Origin: Candidatus Marinimicrobia bacterium CG08_land_8_20_14_0_20_45_22
Lineage (GTDB): Bacteria; Fidelibacterota; UBA2242
DNA length: 34,950 nucleotides
Direction of reading: 5' to 3'
Assembly: GCA_002774355.1 (NCBI GenBank)
Contig: PEYN01000074.1
Span: 1 to 34,950 of the forward strand
Positions within the stretch are counted from its first letter, which is position 1. Every line of letters starts with the position of its first letter. Both the position numbers and the translations under genes were made by a program. The notes under the pieces were generated by a model that saw only the letters and a list, made by a program, of their open reading frames with translations, was not told the DNA's origin and made no database searches. This document shows positions 1-10,068 of the stretch, one piece after another.

Positions 1-2364
1 ATAGGTAATCGTATCGGGATGGGTCGTGTCGTCGAACCTGATTAAATATTCGCTGTCGGTTACCAGAGCCGGATCGAGAAAATCCAGCAGGACATCGCCG
101 CTGCCCCAGCCCTGCAATTTCACGATGCCGTCAGCCGTCTGCGGCGCGACATATCCCGCGGCCGGCGCATTGGGCACCACGACGGCTGTGTTTTTATCGG
201 TCTTGACAGTGCCATAGGTGTCTTTAAAAATCGTCTTGGTACATTCCGATGGCAGAATATACTTCGCCGCCCAGCCCTGGTCGTAGGAAACCACGGCATA
301 ATAATAAATCTTGCCGTTCTGAACATCGGTATCCACATAGGAATGTTTCAGCCCATTGTCGGATCCGAGATAATATTTCACGCCGTCCACATCGATATCG
401 AAAAAGTCCCTGACGCTGTCCACGAGATCGAAATGAGCCAGCGGATTGTAAAAGGTCGCCTCGCCGTAGCCGTTGGTGATGATATAATCGTCGTTGAAGG
501 CCTCATCGCTGGCCCGGTAAATCCGGTAGCCTTCAAAATCATAGCCGCCGGTTTCCGGATTGGCAAACGAGTCGTACGAATTTTCAGCGGCATCATCCCA
601 GTAAAGCGTAACCTTGCCATCGCCGGGCACAGCGGTTAAGGTCGGCTTGGCGGGCGGTGTGGCAAAATTATAATTGGCATTGTAAATATCCTGAACCACC
701 TCTTTATTGCGCTTCAGGTCGTCAAGGGTCTTGCCGAAAACGAGTGCCAGAGAGAAGCGTTCGGAATGTCCCGGCGGCATTATGAAAGGCCCCGACCCGA
801 ACAAAAATGCGATGTTACCATTTTGACTGCCGGTATCGAAATGATAATTGGAAATGCGCTCCCAGACGGTTTTGTCGTACTGGAATTCGACGCCCTGCCC
901 GATATGAAACGAATCGAAGGCCGTCAAACCGATCTGGTCCGATTCATCCTTGTCGGTTTTATCGAAATTCGGTTCGCCGGCAGTCGGCTGGCCATCCCCT
1001 TCCCCATAATCACCGGTTCCGGCGACGCCATCCTCACCAACATCATCCAGATCGGAATCCCAGTCGCTGTCATTGTCGAGGCCGTCGGAGCGGTCTTCAT
1101 CGATCAGAAAATTATCAAAACCGGTTTCGCCGATCCAGTCGCGGTATTTCAGGCCGGCATGGACGCTTTCGTTTTCATCGATGATACCGTCCAGGTCGTC
1201 GTCTATCCCGTTAAAAGGAGTTTCGCTGACAGTCTGATTCCGGATAAAATAATGTTCTCCGGTACCTTCGGTAATATACAAAGTATCATCGACAAAACGG
1301 TAAAAAGTGCCTTCGCCGGCGGTTTCGAAGTTGACCACTTTGCGACCCCAGTTATTATCAGAATCGAGATTGTTGTAATCAATTACCACCAGGTCACCGG
1401 AAATTATACGGGGCTGGAAATCGCTGGAGCTGAAAGTCGAGCCGGTGCCCGCACTGCCATCGCCGTCGTTATCAATACCGTCGTAAGGATTGCCGGGACT
1501 TTCCAGAAAAGCATAGCCGCAATAGCCGGTTTCCCAGTTATCGTCACCCAAACCATTGCCGTCCCAGGTATAGGCCAAATCGTAGTCCAGACTATAATAA
1601 GCGTTATCGTCATTCGAATCGTTTTGCCCGCCCACGCCGGAGTCGATATACATCCCGAAAACCGCCTTGTTGTAATGAGTGGTACTGACATTCGTGATAT
1701 CATAATGCCAGAAGATAATGTCCTCAGCTAATACGTTCGACCATTGAAAGCCGCGTACTGCCATGCGCACTCCTAAACCGCCGCGCGAACTGTCGTCTTC
1801 ATCGCAATTGAAAAGCCCGTTAAAATCCCGGCCGTGATCATGGTAATCATCAACCACAAAATAACTTTCCTGGTCGGCATTGGTACGTTGCCCGAAATAA
1901 CCGTCCCAGACATTGTGCCAGGCCGCGGACTGATCCGGCCAGTATTCCGGCCAGGTGTTGGGATCGTCGCTCATCGCGATATAATCCTGATTCGGATCGG
2001 TAAAGCCCGGTAAAGGCTGCCAGCCAAATTCAATGCCGGTCGAACCCGATTCATAATGTTCACGGTAGCCGCCCTCGACAATGTGAATTGTGTCGCCGTT
2101 GGTCAGGTTTACTTCGGCGGCTACGATCGGATAAATCCCATCCATATACGAATGCTGACTGCCGCGCGGCCAGACGCCGGATGGCTCTTTGCCCCACCAG
2201 GCGACTTCGCCAAAATTCCAGAAGAGGGTCTCCACCAGATTACCGTTATGAAGGCCTTGCTTCCGGTATTTCCGGTCGCCGTGTAATTCATCGATGTTAC
2301 CCTGGGCCAGCATCCACGAGGCGCAAGCCGTAAGCATTAAAACAACAACCCTTCCGTTTCTCAT
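1..2364 (-). CDS. Secreted Asp-rich protein with fibronectin-like domain, partial (3' end outside window)
   Basis: The reading frame stays open for 788 codons from the ATG at 2364 to the window edge, so the C-terminus is missing. The first ~20 residues form a signal peptide (MRNGRVVVLMLTACASWMLA). Residues ~290-470 hold several Asp/Asn-rich stretches such as DGIDNDGDG and NGIDDDLDG, which resemble calcium-binding loops of thrombospondin type 3 or dockerin kind. Around residues 620-720 a fibronectin type III-like segment is visible (PPAKPTLTAVPGDGKVTLYW, then FEGYRIYRA). The start overlaps the stop of the TonB receptor gene as ATGA, so the two are probably co-translated. In FCB-type genomes such large secreted proteins often follow TonB receptors and end in a T9SS sorting domain; here that end cannot be seen. 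The function is unknown; a surface or extracellular partner of the receptor is an inference. Confidence 0.8.
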   Translation of the reverse strand, partial: MRNGRVVVLMLTACASWMLAQGNIDELHGDRKYRKQGLHNGNLVETLFWNFGEVAWWGKEPSGVWPRGSQHSYMDGIYPIVAAEVNLTNGDTIHIVEGGYREHYESGSTGIEFGWQPLPGFTDPNQDYIAMSDDPNTWPEYWPDQSAAWHNVWDGYFGQRTNADQESYFVVDDYHDHGRDFNGLFNCDEDDSSRGGLGVRMAVRGFQWSNVLAEDIIFWHYDITNVSTTHYNKAVFGMYIDSGVGGQNDSNDDNAYYSLDYDLAYTWDGNGLGDDNWETGYCGYAFLESPGNPYDGIDNDGDGSAGTGSTFSSSDFQPRIISGDLVVIDYNNLDSDNNWGRKVVNFETAGEGTFYRFVDDTLYITEGTGEHYFIRNQTVSETPFNGIDDDLDGIIDENESVHAGLKYRDWIGETGFDNFLIDEDRSDGLDNDSDWDSDLDDVGEDGVAGTGDYGEGDGQPTAGEPNFDKTDKDESDQIGLTAFDSFHIGQGVEFQYDKTVWERISNYHFDTGSQNGNIAFLFGSGPFIMPPGHSERFSLALVFGKTLDDLKRNKEVVQDIYNANYNFATPPAKPTLTAVPGDGKVTLYWDDAAENSYDSFANPETGGYDFEGYRIYRASDEAFNDDYIITNGYGEATFYNPLAHFDLVDSVRDFFDIDVDGVKYYLGSDNGLKHSYVDTDVQNGKIYYYAVVSYDQGWAAKYILPSECTKTIFKDTYGTVKTDKNTAVVVPNAPAAGYVAPQTADGIVKLQGWGSGDVLLDFLDPALVTDSEYLIRFDDTTHPDTITY

Positions 2365-5006
2365 AAGTTCACCTTCAAACCAATCGTAACTTGCCGGGGG
2401 GCCGTGTAGTAATCCGGTCGTGTCAGGAAATCCTCCAGGGTATGAATCGGCTGCTCGGGCACGTAAGTCGGAATGAGTGACGTTGCCGGATCGCCAGTAT
2501 CTGTGTAAACACTGACGGCATTCAAGCGATCAAAAAGATTCTTTACCTGTGCAAAGAAAATCAAACGGACCTTTTTCAACGAAATAATATACTCGGCATT
2601 CAGATCGACATTAAATGTGTACGGTTTGCGCTCGGAATTCTCGAACGAGGTACGCTGGTTCTGATACTCGGGTGTGTAAGGCAGACCGCTGCCGAAGCCG
2701 GCGATGATTCCGGAGCTCCACTTTTTATCTGTCAGGTTCAATGACAGATTCAGAGTGTGGGTCTGATCCCAATCCAGCGGCACGGTCTGAATCTCGCTGG
2801 CGCGCGGCGGATCGGACTGCTGGTCGTAAAACACGGCCCTGGGGTCCGACGCATTGCCTTCTGCCACCTGATAAGTATAGTCCAGCGCCGCGGACAGAAT
2901 TCCGATCTGGCTTTGGGACAGTGAGACGGCAATCCCGCGCACGTTGCCGTAATCCTGGTTCACATAACGCGCGTAGCGGTCGCCGATTATATACAGTTCT
3001 TTGATTTCGGTGCCGACCAAATCGCGAATATCCTTGTAGTAGCCGGTCAATTCCACGACCAGACCGGGGCCAACCATCTGCTGCAGTCCGATCTGATAAA
3101 TGGTAGTCTTCATCGGTTCCAGGTCGGCATTGCCCATGATGGTATTCAAACCACCGCCCTCGACTTCGAATTCCGAATTATAATACAGGTACTCATAGTT
3201 TGGTATCTGAAAAAAATTGCCGTAAGAAATGTGGATCGCACCCTGGTCGGTGATCGGAAAAGACATGCCCAGACGCGGACTCAATTGCTGTTTGACGGAC
3301 GCCTTCGTATAGGGCTCGTCTGTCTCGTAATAACTGCCGTCCGGGTCGCGTAGATCTTTTGGCACAACTCCGTCGGGTTCGAAATAATCCCAGCGCAAAC
3401 CAAAGGTCAGGTTGATCCGCTGGAATTCAATTTTATCTTCGAGCCAGGCCGCAATTTCCTGCGGTTTGTGGCGATACTCGTTATTGTTCACGCTCTCGGC
3501 CGGATAGATCTGCGGTTTCCAGTCGGTTGTCCGGTCCAAATACAGGCTGTATTCATGCAGCCAAAGATTACTATGAGTATATTCCCAACCGGCCTTGATC
3601 TCGTTCCTTTGATTGATTTGGGTGATCAGGTTCCACTTCAGGGTATTAGCCCGGGTGGTGCGGTAGAAATGGCTCATATCCATACCGCCGGTGTAAAATC
3701 CATATCCGAGACGGCGTAATAATTGCGAGCTGACATAGTTTTCATCGTACGGATCCGCATAAACGTAGGATTCGTAGTTATTATAGAGGTAATTGTATTT
3801 TAAAGTGTAAAAAAGATTCTTTCTGACCACATGGGTCAGCCCGAGGGAATATTGATAACGATTCTGATATTTGGTCACGATTCCATCGGGATTGTATTTA
3901 AAATAATGATCGTAATCCTTGTAGTTACGATCAGAGTAACTGCCCTGTAAATCCAGGGTCAGGCGGCTGGTCAGTTGAGTCGCTATTTTACCTGTGAAAC
4001 TGATTTTTTCATTAGGATTCATGGCCCGGGCCCGGCTGTCTCCGTTGCGTTCGATAGTCCAATTGTCCGAATTCGTATCGTCCGTATTCGACGAATCCGA
4101 CAGTAAAAATTCCTGCTTGCCGTATAAATAACCGTCCGAGACCGCCCGGCGCCCCGATAAATAAAACGAGGTTTTCGGGATTAATGGCAAAGGTCCGGCC
4201 AGACTTAATTCCAGACTATTAATGGCCAAAGAATCGACATCGTCGATATTATAAAATGGAGTCGTATGGTTGCTGATAAAATCGCCGCTGTAGAGTTCGG
4301 CGTTGATGTGATAATCCTCGTCACCGGTTTTGGTAATTACATTGACGACGCCGGACATCGCCTGGCCGTATTCGGCGCTAAAAGTTCCGCTGATTACCTT
4401 GACTTCCTGGATCGAACTGTTTTCGATTTCCACCGCCAGACTGCGATCATACGGATCGGAAACGGAAATGCCATCGACCATATAAGTAACTTCGCCGGCG
4501 CGTCCGCCTCGGAAATGTCCGTCCACTACTCCGGCCTGTAAATTGATTAGTTCCTGAAAATCGGTCACCGGCATTTTGGCAATCTCATCTGAGCCAATCA
4601 CTGATATCGTCGAAGTCCGGTCACGTTGAATTTCCGGTCGACGTCCCAGCACGATCAATTCCTCCGCGCTTTCGAGGACGGTTTGCGAAAGATTAAAATC
4701 CTGCACGGTCGTAAAATCGGCGTGCACCGGCACATTGTTTAACTGAATCGCCTGATAACCGATCATGGAAATTTTCAAAGCATATTCACTGGGCGGAATA
4801 TTGAGAATGACATAGTAGCCATTCAGATCGGTTGCGGCTCCCAAACCGGTTCCCACGAGAATGACATTAACGCCAGTCAGCGGGGCGCCACTTTGTTTAT
4901 CGGTAATAGAGCCGGTGATTTTACCGGCGGTACCAGCCATTAGATAAAATGGTAAAAAAACGAAAAATTCTGCTATGACAAGGGGCTTAAACATGCGTTT
5001 TATCAT
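2361..5006 (-). CDS. TonB-dependent outer-membrane receptor with carboxypeptidase-regulatory-like domain
   Basis: The protein has 881 residues from the ATG at 5006. Residues 1-24 are a signal peptide. Residues ~27-110 form a carboxypeptidase-regulatory-like beta-sandwich (GKITGSITDKQSGAPLTGVN). A plug domain follows at ~125-250, with YMVDGISVSDP and SGVVNVITKTG as its typical segments. The rest has the aromatic, alternating pattern of a 22-strand barrel and ends in VTIGLKVNL, a usual outer-membrane C-terminus. An upstream extension to 5114 is open but overlaps the preceding gene and encodes no signal peptide, so 5006 is preferred. The gene sits between a CBM9 sugar-binding secreted protein and a large secreted protein, behind a LacI regulator. 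Carbohydrate uptake is therefore the likeliest role; the substrate cannot be read from the sequence. Confidence 0.9.
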   Translation of the reverse strand: MIKRMFKPLVIAEFFVFLPFYLMAGTAGKITGSITDKQSGAPLTGVNVILVGTGLGAATDLNGYYVILNIPPSEYALKISMIGYQAIQLNNVPVHADFTTVQDFNLSQTVLESAEELIVLGRRPEIQRDRTSTISVIGSDEIAKMPVTDFQELINLQAGVVDGHFRGGRAGEVTYMVDGISVSDPYDRSLAVEIENSSIQEVKVISGTFSAEYGQAMSGVVNVITKTGDEDYHINAELYSGDFISNHTTPFYNIDDVDSLAINSLELSLAGPLPLIPKTSFYLSGRRAVSDGYLYGKQEFLLSDSSNTDDTNSDNWTIERNGDSRARAMNPNEKISFTGKIATQLTSRLTLDLQGSYSDRNYKDYDHYFKYNPDGIVTKYQNRYQYSLGLTHVVRKNLFYTLKYNYLYNNYESYVYADPYDENYVSSQLLRRLGYGFYTGGMDMSHFYRTTRANTLKWNLITQINQRNEIKAGWEYTHSNLWLHEYSLYLDRTTDWKPQIYPAESVNNNEYRHKPQEIAAWLEDKIEFQRINLTFGLRWDYFEPDGVVPKDLRDPDGSYYETDEPYTKASVKQQLSPRLGMSFPITDQGAIHISYGNFFQIPNYEYLYYNSEFEVEGGGLNTIMGNADLEPMKTTIYQIGLQQMVGPGLVVELTGYYKDIRDLVGTEIKELYIIGDRYARYVNQDYGNVRGIAVSLSQSQIGILSAALDYTYQVAEGNASDPRAVFYDQQSDPPRASEIQTVPLDWDQTHTLNLSLNLTDKKWSSGIIAGFGSGLPYTPEYQNQRTSFENSERKPYTFNVDLNAEYIISLKKVRLIFFAQVKNLFDRLNAVSVYTDTGDPATSLIPTYVPEQPIHTLEDFLTRPDYYTAPRQVTIGLKVNL

Positions 5007-5031
5007 GTTCGGTATTCCGCTCGGTTTTGAA

Positions 5032-5061
5032 CGGCAGCTCCCCGAGACCGGGGAGCTGCCG
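5032..5061 (-). promoter_or_regulatory. Intercistronic stem-loop between CBM9 protein gene and TonB receptor gene
   Basis: Arms 5032-5043 (cggcagctcccc) and 5050-5061 (ggggagctgccg) are perfect 12-bp complements around a 6-base loop; one further G-C pair would leave a tetraloop. It lies in the 64-base gap between the stop of the upstream gene and the ATG of the receptor. On the transcribed strand it is followed by TTCAAAAC, not a U-run, so it is not a canonical intrinsic terminator. An mRNA-stabilising, processing or attenuating element that sets the ratio of the two proteins is the likely role (inference). Confidence 0.7.
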
Positions 5062-5070
5062 CAGAACAAT

Positions 5071-6837
5071 TTACTTGGATAGAACCATTTTGGCAACCTT
5101 GAAATTGTTGCCATAATTGACCTTATACAGATATAAACCGGTTGGTGCCGGCAAACCGTTTTCTGTCAAGCCGTTCCATTCAAAGCGATGATAACCGGAA
5201 GGTAACTCGCTGTTAATCAAGGTGCGGATTCTCTGGCCAAGAATATTGTAAATGTCCAGGCGAACCTTTCCGCTTGTCGGAGTCGAAAAAGAAATCGTAG
5301 TACTCGGATTGAACGGATTGGGATAGTTCGGATATAGCTCGAAGCGATCCGCAACGGCGGTTTTTTCATTATCAACATCAACGGCTTCAGAAGTCGACAG
5401 AATCACGCCGCGGTACATAAAATATTTCTCGAAGTTCGGATCGACCCACTGTGTGCCCCACCAGTTCGGAGCGTAATCTGAAATATGTTCCTGGTAGGCA
5501 TCCACACTGCCGTAGTCCAAATCCCAGACACAGGCGCTTAGCATTACCGTATCGCCTACCTGATAACCGAAGTCGGCTGTATGAATCACGACCTCAAGAC
5601 TGTAGCCGGCGTCAACTCCATTGGTCTCCGTCTGCGTCACAGTTCCGGTCGGCTCATAAGACGCTCCTTCGGCTCCACCGGTCGGCACCGCCGAACTCGT
5701 CTGGAAGGTAATTCCCGAGCCCTCCGTTCCGTTGAAGTACATAGCCTTGATCTCCATCCGCTCGCCTGACGACGGAATCATACCGTAGTTCGTCATCCAC
5801 AGGAACAGTCCATCCGCTTCCCAGCCGGGTGACCATTTGCAAACAGAAGCATCGTCGGAGGTTAATCCGATATACAGGTCAGTGCCATTGTGCATGAACT
5901 TTAGAGTGGCATTGCTGCGGTCGGTGTAACTGTTGAGCGTATCGCCCCATTGCATGTAATAGCCGCCGGTTCCCAGTTCGGAATCCACGCCAATGTCAAC
6001 ACTCTGAGCATTTACCCAGAAGGATTCATTCAACTGACCGTCAAGTGTAATTACACCGGTGGTCGCATAGGCCGTTCTGGTCGGCGGATCGGCCAGTTTC
6101 AGGGTGCGGAATTCACTGCCCCATTCGCTACCCCACCACTGCTTGTAATAAGAACCGGTAGGCTTCCAGGGATTGTCCGTTTCGTAATAATTGTCGGGAT
6201 CAAAAATATTGATCATTACTTCAACTTCAGCGTACGGATCGGTATAACCCAATTGATCCAGATGAATCACCATTTCCGCCGTGTAGCCAGAATCCACCTG
6301 AGTAGTATCATTCACGACAGTACCCGCATTCTTAAAAGCGGCACCTGATCCTGAATTAGGATAAACCCCCGGCATTTCAAAAGCGATATCCGGATCGGTT
6401 CCACTCTTATTGAAAAACAACTTGTATTCAACTGCCGTCCCACTGGCATCCTTGATTTTCATGAAAAGCCCGTCACCTTCCCAGCTGTCGCCAAATTTAC
6501 CGACCGATTTGTCATCGGAATCCAGGGCTATGAATAGATCGAGACCGTCGTGCATTACTTTGACATAGGTCGTGGTTGTATCCACGTATGTTCCCGTAAC
6601 CTGAATGCCGCCGGTCGGTGTATATTGGACATCTCCGATAATGCCTTTTGCATTGAACACCAGGTAATCGTACCGGCGCGCCCATTCGGTTTCGCCAAGA
6701 ACACCATCAATCACAGGCGCATTCTCAACTGAAACCACTCGCACAGAGGATGGATCGATATGACTGTTTTGCGCCGGGATAAGCCGTACGGTGCAAACCA
6801 GCATTAAAACAATCCAAACCGTAAGAATTTTTCTCAT
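5071..6837 (-). CDS. Secreted protein with two CBM9-like sugar-binding domains and a T9SS type A sorting domain
   Basis: The product has 588 residues. A signal peptide covers residues 1-22 (MRKILTVWIVLMLVCTVRLI...). Two family 9 carbohydrate-binding-module-like repeats follow. Both open with an IDG/LDG...W motif (VIDGVLGETEW near residue 45, ITLDGQLNESFW near 265). Both contain a matching middle block (VKVMHDGLDLFIALDSDD and LKFMHNGTDLYIGLTSDD, then WEGDGLFM and WEADGLFL). Residues ~500-588 are a type IX secretion sorting domain with NYPNPFNPSTTISF and a final KMVLSK. A strong ribosome site (AAGGAGAG) precedes the ATG at 6837. The gene lies 68 bases after lacI and before the TonB receptor, consistent with a secreted or surface-anchored glycan-binding protein. 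No catalytic domain is seen. Confidence 0.88.
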   Translation of the reverse strand: MRKILTVWIVLMLVCTVRLIPAQNSHIDPSSVRVVSVENAPVIDGVLGETEWARRYDYLVFNAKGIIGDVQYTPTGGIQVTGTYVDTTTTYVKVMHDGLDLFIALDSDDKSVGKFGDSWEGDGLFMKIKDASGTAVEYKLFFNKSGTDPDIAFEMPGVYPNSGSGAAFKNAGTVVNDTTQVDSGYTAEMVIHLDQLGYTDPYAEVEVMINIFDPDNYYETDNPWKPTGSYYKQWWGSEWGSEFRTLKLADPPTRTAYATTGVITLDGQLNESFWVNAQSVDIGVDSELGTGGYYMQWGDTLNSYTDRSNATLKFMHNGTDLYIGLTSDDASVCKWSPGWEADGLFLWMTNYGMIPSSGERMEIKAMYFNGTEGSGITFQTSSAVPTGGAEGASYEPTGTVTQTETNGVDAGYSLEVVIHTADFGYQVGDTVMLSACVWDLDYGSVDAYQEHISDYAPNWWGTQWVDPNFEKYFMYRGVILSTSEAVDVDNEKTAVADRFELYPNYPNPFNPSTTISFSTPTSGKVRLDIYNILGQRIRTLINSELPSGYHRFEWNGLTENGLPAPTGLYLYKVNYGNNFKVAKMVLSK

Positions 6838-6852
6838 CGTTTCTCTCCTTTT

Positions 6853-6866
6853 TTAATCGTTTACAT
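6853..6866 (-). promoter_or_regulatory. Candidate LacI-family operator (imperfect) in front of the CBM9 gene
   Basis: The minus strand reads ATGTAAACGATTAA. It shares the ATGTAAAC half-site with the two strong operators upstream of lacI, but the other half is degenerate. It lies 16-29 bases upstream of the CBM9 gene start, overlapping the region just ahead of its ribosome site. It may allow a second control point within the operon. The match is short, so this is tentative. Confidence 0.4.
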
Positions 6867-6905: not shown

Positions 6906-7931
6906 TTATTTTGCTTGCTTTGCGCCGCAGGATTCCCGAATTATCATTTCAAGCGGTATGACAATACGTTCGGCAACTGCAATCTGCTGTTCTGAAACGT
7001 TTTCTATTTTCTGTAACAGGGTTTTCCCAACTACCAGACCAAGATCGAAAAGCGGAACATGCACCGTAGTCAATGCCGGGGTAATATATTGTGACGTTGA
7101 AATATCATCGAATCCGACGACAGCGATGTCGCCCGGGACTTTTAATCCAAAATCTTTGATAGCCTCGATCGCCCCGATCGCCATGGCGTCATTGGCCGCA
7201 AAAATAGCCGTTGGTCGCGGAGACAACGTTGCTAAACCTTTCTCAAAAGCTTTATATCCGGAATATTCTGTAAAATTGCCCTGAACAACGTATTCGTCTT
7301 TAACGGTTATCTTATTATTCTGGAGAGCTTCCAGGTATCCTCTATATCTTCTCTGCGAATCGTAGTTGTGGACTGGTCCCTTGATAAAAGCAATCTCTTT
7401 GTGCCCTAATTCGATTAAATGATTGGTCATTTTCACGGCCATATTAAAGTTGTCCAGCACAACCGAGGAAGTACCCGGTTTACCGCGCGGCACCGATATA
7501 AACACTGCCGGAGTCTTATATTTTGCCTGAAGAGCATAGATTTCATCATTTTGCAGCGAAGGCGCCATAATAATCAATCCATCCACGGTTCGGCCGTTTA
7601 AAAACTGTGAAACCGCTTTCATTTCTTCCTCTTCATCATGAGCACTTCCGATGATTACATGGTAGTCATGTTGATTAACAAAATTGAAAATGCCGCGGAT
7701 AATTTCAGTAAAATAAGTGCTGCTCGCATCCGGAAAAACCATACCGATTATTTTGGTGTGTTTGTTCTGTAAAAACCGCGCGCCGATGTTCGGTGTAAAA
7801 TTATGTAATTTAATGGCATTTAGCACTTTTTTGCGCGTCACAGCCTTCACCTTTCCAGTGTTGTTCATCACGCGTGAAACCGTCGCGGTTGATACACCCG
7901 CCTGTTTTGCCACGTCTACGATTGTTGCCAT
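6906..7931 (-). CDS. LacI-family transcriptional repressor
   Basis: The product has 341 residues from the ATG at 7931. The N-terminal LacI helix-turn-helix and hinge helix are clear (ATIVDVAKQAGVSTATVSRV, then NNTGKVKAVTRKKVL). A periplasmic-binding-protein-like effector domain follows (KIIGMVFPD..., AIFAANDAMAIGAIEAIKD, VVGFDDISTSQYITPALTTV). A possible TTG start at 7961 would add ten residues that do not resemble the family, so the ATG is chosen; AGGA lies about 10 bases before it. It is the first gene of the minus-strand unit containing the CBM9 protein and the TonB receptor. Two operator copies span its own promoter region. Autoregulation and repression of the downstream genes until a sugar ligand is bound is the expected behaviour; the ligand is unknown. 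Confidence 0.93.
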   Translation of the reverse strand: MATIVDVAKQAGVSTATVSRVMNNTGKVKAVTRKKVLNAIKLHNFTPNIGARFLQNKHTKIIGMVFPDASSTYFTEIIRGIFNFVNQHDYHVIIGSAHDEEEEMKAVSQFLNGRTVDGLIIMAPSLQNDEIYALQAKYKTPAVFISVPRGKPGTSSVVLDNFNMAVKMTNHLIELGHKEIAFIKGPVHNYDSQRRYRGYLEALQNNKITVKDEYVVQGNFTEYSGYKAFEKGLATLSPRPTAIFAANDAMAIGAIEAIKDFGLKVPGDIAVVGFDDISTSQYITPALTTVHVPLFDLGLVVGKTLLQKIENVSEQQIAVAERIVIPLEMIIRESCGAKQAK

Positions 7932-7964
7932 ATTCCGCTTATCCTGTTTAGAACCGAACAAAAA

Positions 7965-7980
7965 ATGTAAACACTTACAT
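7965..7980. promoter_or_regulatory. LacI-family operator, copy 1
   Basis: The site reads ATGTAA-ACAC-TTACAT: two perfectly inverted hexamers around a 4-base centre, of the size and composition used by LacI-family repressors. It sits across the expected start of transcription of lacI. Confidence 0.75.
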
Positions 7981-7981
7981 T

Positions 7982-8010
7982 AATGTAGCCAATCTAAGTT
8001 TGTTTGTCAA
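7982..8010 (-). promoter_or_regulatory. lacI proximal promoter (copy 1)
   Basis: On the minus strand the -35 box TTGACA lies at 8010-8005. The -10 box TACATT lies at 7987-7982, with a 17-base spacer. The operator at 7965-7980 starts 1 base after the -10 box and would cover the transcription start. The -10 box is also part of a perfect 12-bp palindrome (7976-7987). Confidence 0.75.
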
Positions 8011-8036
8011 TAGTTTTTTTACTTTCAATACAAAAA

Positions 8037-8052
8037 ATGTAAACACTTACAT
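8037..8052. promoter_or_regulatory. LacI-family operator, copy 2
   Basis: Identical to copy 1 and exactly 72 bp away, which is close to seven helical turns. The spacing would let dimers on the two sites lie on nearly the same face of the DNA. Confidence 0.72.
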
Positions 8053-8053
8053 T

Positions 8054-8082
8054 AATGTAGCCAATCTAGGTTTGTTTGTCAA
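8054..8082 (-). promoter_or_regulatory. lacI distal promoter (copy 2)
   Basis: This is the second copy of the promoter, 72 bases further upstream. TTGACA is at 8082-8077 and TACATT at 8059-8054, with the same 17-base spacer. It is not damaged by the single difference between copies, so both promoters could fire. Confidence 0.7.
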
Positions 8083-8101
8083 TAGTTTTTTTACTTTCAA
8101 T

Positions 8102-9645: not shown

Positions 9646-10029
9646 ATGAGCACTTTTAAGACATACCAGGAAATTGAAGCTTGGCAAAAAGCCAGAGAGT
9701 TGACAAATAGAATCTATTCATTGACCAAGCAAAATGAATTTCATAAAGATTATGCCCTGACTGATCAACTACGCCGTGCCTGTATTTCCATAATGAGTAA
9801 CATTGCCGAAGGATTCGAGCGCGATCGCTCCAGAGAATTTGTTCAATTCTCACTTTACGCTAAAGGCTCGACTGGAGAAATTTCTAACCAATTAATCATC
9901 GCTCTCGATCAAAAATATATCGATGCTCATCAGTATAAAGAATTATCTGATTTAGCTAATGAGATCGGCAAAATGATTGGTGGAATTATTTCTTATTTGC
10001 AAAAAGAAAAACATCAGGATTCTCGATGA
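9646..10029 (+). CDS. Four-helix-bundle protein (23S rRNA intervening-sequence protein family)
   Basis: The product has 127 residues, the usual length for this family (TIGR02436 type). Family landmarks are visible: the opening FKTYQEIEAWQKARELTNRI, the middle LRRACISIMSNIAEGFER, and GSTGEISNQLIIALD. Homologues are found inside 23S rRNA intervening sequences, and a relative (Avd) serves diversity-generating retroelements; the role of stand-alone copies is not known. No ribosome site precedes the ATG. The gene lies between the 2Fe-2S and molybdopterin subunits of an oxidoreductase, with which it has no known functional tie, and is bounded by inverted heptamer arrays. It is in the same frame as the downstream subunit, separated only by its TGA stop and an open linker. 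Confidence 0.9.
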   Translation: MSTFKTYQEIEAWQKARELTNRIYSLTKQNEFHKDYALTDQLRRACISIMSNIAEGFERDRSREFVQFSLYAKGSTGEISNQLIIALDQKYIDAHQYKELSDLANEIGKMIGGIISYLQKEKHQDSR

Positions 10030-10039
10030 ATAATAAAAC

Positions 10040-10068
10040 TCGCAACTCGTAACTCGGAACTCGCAACT
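10040..10068 (-). repeat. Right terminal heptamer array (GTTNCGA)n, inverted
   Basis: Read on the minus strand it is GTTGCGA, GTTCCGA, GTTACGA, GTTGCGA. These are the same three heptamer variants as on the left side in the opposite orientation. It starts about 10 bases after the four-helix gene stop and ends directly before the conserved N-terminal coding region of the molybdopterin subunit. Confidence 0.85.

Follow-up and report, generated by a model that had tools for sequence, protein, structure and literature searches.

Tandem duplication of a putatively autoregulated lacI promoter-operator unit at the head of a carbohydrate-uptake operon in a Neomarinimicrobiota genome

A gene for a LacI-family repressor in a Neomarinimicrobiota MAG (2.63 Mb, 213 contigs) is preceded by two adjacent, nearly identical segments, each resembling a complete promoter with its operator. 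The locus raises the question of whether these segments are a genuine, derived duplication of a working control unit and, if so, what a second copy would do to expression of the genes that follow. In the window, by which we mean the whole 34,950-nucleotide stretch analysed (contig C74), we read the arrangement as a lineage-specific tandem duplication of an autoregulated lacI promoter-operator that heads a carbohydrate-uptake operon and would modestly raise output while repression is kept, a reading to which we assign a probability of about 0.66.

The duplication itself is clear. Tandem Repeats Finder returns 7958-8101 as the sole large array in the window (period 72, 2.0 copies, 98% matches, no indels), and a search of 459 kb of this genome turned up no other array with a period of at least 60 and above 90% match. 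The copies lie head-to-tail on the minus strand ahead of the LacI-family gene, the proximal copy adjoining lacI (7958..8029) and the distal copy behind it (8030..8101), and they differ, as the initial annotation had stated, at one base in 72 (7997 A versus 8069 G), which falls within the spacer between the -35 and -10 elements. Chance is excluded as an explanation, given that about 3e-34 tandem matches of 71/72 would be expected in the window. The junction between the copies reads ...TTTTTTGT joined directly to ATTGAAAG..., and since the array measures exactly 2 x 72 bp there is no junction microhomology, that is, no mark of slippage at the outer ends.

Each copy carries the same set of elements on the minus strand: TTGACA, a 17-base spacer and TACATT, followed two bases on by ATGTAAGTGTTTACAT lying over the predicted start, the layout that had been proposed for the unit. 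In the proximal copy the -35 element occupies 8005..8010, the -10 element 7982..7987 and the operator 7965..7980, covering a predicted +1 at approximately 7975; this operator lies 34-49 bp ahead of the lacI start codon (7931), with AGGATAA (7939..7945, minus strand) as the likely ribosome-binding site in between. In the distal copy the -35 element lies at 8077..8082, the -10 element at 8054..8059 and the operator at 8037..8052, with a start expected near 8047. When up to one mismatch is allowed, TGTAAnnnnTTACA occurs four times in the window against 0.76 expected, and the only perfect sites are the two in the duplicated copies; the whole genome contains two further perfect sites, neither of them in an evident sugar-operon promoter. 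The core TGTAAGTGTTTACA is an even palindrome whose centre is TG here, whereas most of the 14 orthologues described below have CG, and the departure from the usual CG may weaken repressor binding.

To place the duplication in its lineage, we compared the 400 bp upstream of 14 lacI orthologues (280 bp in one case) that are 50-70% identical and come from other MAGs, the closest relatives of the host genome being Candidatus Neomarinimicrobiota/Marinimicrobia MAGs. All 14 carry exactly one unit, TTGAC[AT]-(16-18)-TATATT-TGTAAnnnnTTACA with at most one operator mismatch, 39-57 bp ahead of the gene, and the proximal -35 and -10 elements of the window have their counterparts at the same place in every one of them. 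None of the 14 has a tandem repeat upstream of lacI or a pair of operators at 72-bp spacing, and a search at 75% identity over 40 bp detected no upstream duplication in a further 66 LacI-family genes of greater divergence. When one of the two window copies is deleted, the alignment to the closest relatives is restored on both sides, including the right flank. That the unit is conserved while the DNA around it has diverged argues strongly, from comparison of sequences, that both promoter and operator are genuine and that a single copy is ancestral. This agrees with the annotation of the duplicated segment as a genuine promoter-operator unit, and it makes the duplication the derived state, because the relatives are all single-copy. 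That the operator is kept in lacI's own promoter in all 14 orthologues also points to autoregulation.

The order of events can be partly reconstructed. Both window copies share TACATT, where all 14 relatives have TATATT, and both share the operator-centre TG; since these derived changes are present in each copy, either they preceded the duplication or homogenisation has since made the copies alike. The simplest order would have the point changes first and the duplication after, although homogenisation of older copies would yield an identical pattern. The description of the duplication as recent is upheld insofar as the copies are near-identical and the relatives single-copy, but it depends on one substitution in 72 bp, which homogenisation could also account for. 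The spacers of the relatives are too diverged to polarise 7997 A/8069 G, and the age of the duplication is uncertain because the window's own genus-mate (G001) lacks the locus, both lacI and the following gene being absent. In three orthologues of the 50%-identity group (L047, L049 and L051), an extra perfect TGTAAnnnnTTACA is seen approximately 330 bp upstream of lacI, which puts it some 270 bp beyond the main operator.

The repressor (6906..7931, minus strand, 341 aa) has the N-terminal LacI helix-turn-helix (Pfam LacI PF00356, 8.2e-19) and the periplasmic-binding-protein-like core (Peripla_BP_3 PF13377, 5.5e-37) of the LacI family, and the structures it matches best are those of PurR and CcpA. 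The presence of two operators for a LacI-family repressor close to a single promoter recalls O1 and O3 of the E. coli lac operon, and the pair could in principle have evolved for cooperative repression through a 72-bp DNA loop. The annotated distance of about seven helical turns is borne out at 10.5 bp per turn (72 bp = 6.9 turns), and in vivo lac looping data span spacings from 57.5 bp up (PMC1762422), yet the helical repeats fitted in vivo in the same work (10.95-11.6) would put 72 bp at 6.2-6.6 turns. Looping by O1 and O3, moreover, needs a tetrameric repressor, whereas the alignment of the window protein to LacI stops at residue 328 of 360 with approximately six residues remaining, so that the C-terminal tetramerisation helix is missing; the orthologues end near the same point, with one exception that has a longer tail. 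Since this tail is absent, lac-type looping by a tetrameric repressor is unlikely and was rejected as a mechanism, and dimers separated by 72 bp are not known to make contact. Coupled with the lack of any orthologue with sites paired at this spacing, these features make evolution for looping very improbable. The earlier suggestion of cooperative binding likewise finds little support, given that cooperativity in the LacI family has been linked to spacings of 22 and 32 bp, in a survey where tandem sites precede about 20% of LacI-family-regulated operons (PMC4052901).

The unit appears to serve more than lacI. Beyond the repressor gene on the minus strand lie a secreted protein with a T9SS sorting tail (5071..6837), found after lacI in every relative whose sequence covers this position; a TonB-dependent receptor-like outer-membrane protein (2361..5114); and a gene fragment truncated by the contig end (1..2364), encoding the N-terminal 788 aa of a protein conserved in the operon, approximately 1,100 aa long and without a Pfam match. 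The order lacI, secreted protein, TonB receptor, 1,100-aa protein, PorV-like protein and GH94 is kept; the PorV-like and GH94 phosphorylase-family genes are seen in relatives, some of which also carry sugar ABC transporter genes, and in the host genome they sit on contig C105. Between lacI and the next gene the window has neither a terminator nor a good promoter, and the same gap in seven relatives has no terminator and either no promoter or one weak promoter match. The unit therefore probably drives the whole sugar operon, such that the lacI promoter would be the promoter of the entire operon. Window positions 1-567 overlap positions 4669-5235 of L152 on C105 within the same gene, a gapless contig-end overlap of 567 bp at 88.4% identity; related strains thus seem to be mixed in the bin, and C105 may come from a sister strain. 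In three relatives (L024 7226-10735, L026 1334-4795 and L031 1357-4827) the secreted protein that follows lacI is doubled to approximately 1,150 aa and contains additional sequence in its middle, ahead of the sorting tail, which in L031 includes a PKD domain.

The gap behind lacI also contains a degenerate second operator, TGTAAACGATTAAA (6852..6865, minus strand); the seven closest orthologues keep TGTAAACGTTTACA in this gap, six of them perfectly and one with a single mismatch. The duplication could accordingly be viewed as a compensating cis-regulatory change caught early, in which the second operator was lost and the -10 element weakened, and copying of the promoter-operator restored both operator number and promoter strength. 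We consider this sequence of operator turnover unlikely.

Under the preferred reading, a duplicated autoregulated unit with modestly raised output, each copy would act as a promoter of the sigma-70 type whose start point is covered by a repressor site. The two stacked promoters proposed in the initial annotation are plausible, both units having TTGACA, a 17-base spacer and TACATT. In the absence of the sugar signal, a repressor dimer would occupy each site independently and block each promoter; in its presence both promoters would fire, the distal transcript crossing the proximal unit and carrying a leader 72 nt longer. When the starts of tandem promoters are separated by more than 35 bp, neither promoter occludes the other's start site, but a downstream promoter can nevertheless hold up polymerase (PMC8830795). 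The net outcome would be a modest increase in the output of both operon and repressor while repression is retained, and the second copy may partly offset the weaker -10 (TACATT rather than the relatives' TATATT). In a toy model of negative autoregulation, which has assumed parameters and serves as illustration, doubling the promoter number raised steady-state repressor 1.27-1.54-fold. The proposed higher dosage of the regulator is thus plausible but small, and incomplete as a description, because no terminator follows lacI and the operon as a whole is probably driven by the unit too. A wider regulon as the reason for extra repressor was rejected, as operator matches elsewhere in the genome are scattered and weak, and so was a structured distal leader RNA, the longer leader being no more stable than shuffled sequences (z = -0.26).

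It is also possible, though in our estimation distinctly less probable than an effect on expression, that the duplication is neutral and transient, seen in a single genome, without any effect on expression that selection has favoured, and probably due to be removed by recombination. A single difference in 72 bases, restriction to one lineage with all relatives single-copy, and the position of that difference in the spacer, outside the functional elements, speak for this; near-identical duplications of this kind are nevertheless rare here, as the 459 kb searched attest, and the identity of the functional elements between copies is uninformative at this age. The duplication is known from one MAG contig, the one genome for its species, and it might be an artefact of assembling a strain-mixed metagenome, the true genome being single-copy. 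The fragmentation of the MAG into 213 contigs and the overlap of C105 with the window start at only 88% identity lend some weight to this, as does the 144-bp length of the array, close to that of one short read. However, assemblers generally tend to collapse tandem repeats rather than create them, a base distinguishes the copies, and the array lies well within a 35-kb contig, and we consider an artefact quite unlikely.

Much about the locus is familiar from local LacI-family regulators of sugar metabolism (PurR/CcpA/RbsR-like), which have an even palindromic 16-bp operator over their own promoter, placed 30-140 bp upstream of the start codon, and sugar-uptake genes as neighbours; autoregulation is found in 72% of LacI-family regulators, a share that exceeds three quarters among the local ones (PMC4052901). 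The window differs from these in that its pair arose by copying of a whole promoter, at 72 bp, and in its TG rather than CG centre. Engineered clusters of the core tac promoter, in which tandem copies raise expression stepwise in E. coli, similarly place identical promoters head to tail before one gene, but the window case is natural, has two copies with a 72-bp period, and gives each copy its own repressor site; according to the 2012 paper describing those clusters, reports of natural tandem repetitive promoters in prokaryotes were lacking at that time (PMC3293061). Mycobacterial rrnA regions also have several tandem promoters and are thought to involve promoter duplication, but they drive rRNA genes from distinct promoters that lack repressor operators (PMC10218544). 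Natural bacterial cases in which a complete promoter and its operator stand copied head to tail have seldom been described. In this one, 14 relatives still show the ancestral single copy, which makes the locus a small, testable case of how the copy number of a whole control unit relates to the behaviour of a self-repressed circuit. The duplication is probably a real, modest, lineage-specific cis-regulatory change of ordinary mechanism that slightly adjusts expression, and its practical effect is probably modest.

Elsewhere in the window, a gene for a 23S rRNA intervening-sequence-type protein (9646-10029; PF05635, 1.7e-36) lies within a xanthine-dehydrogenase-like cluster, with the gene for the iron-sulphur subunit on one side and that for the molybdenum subunit on the other. 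It is adjoined by an array of the 7-bp repeat AACTCGC (10037-10068), and together they resemble an inserted cassette.
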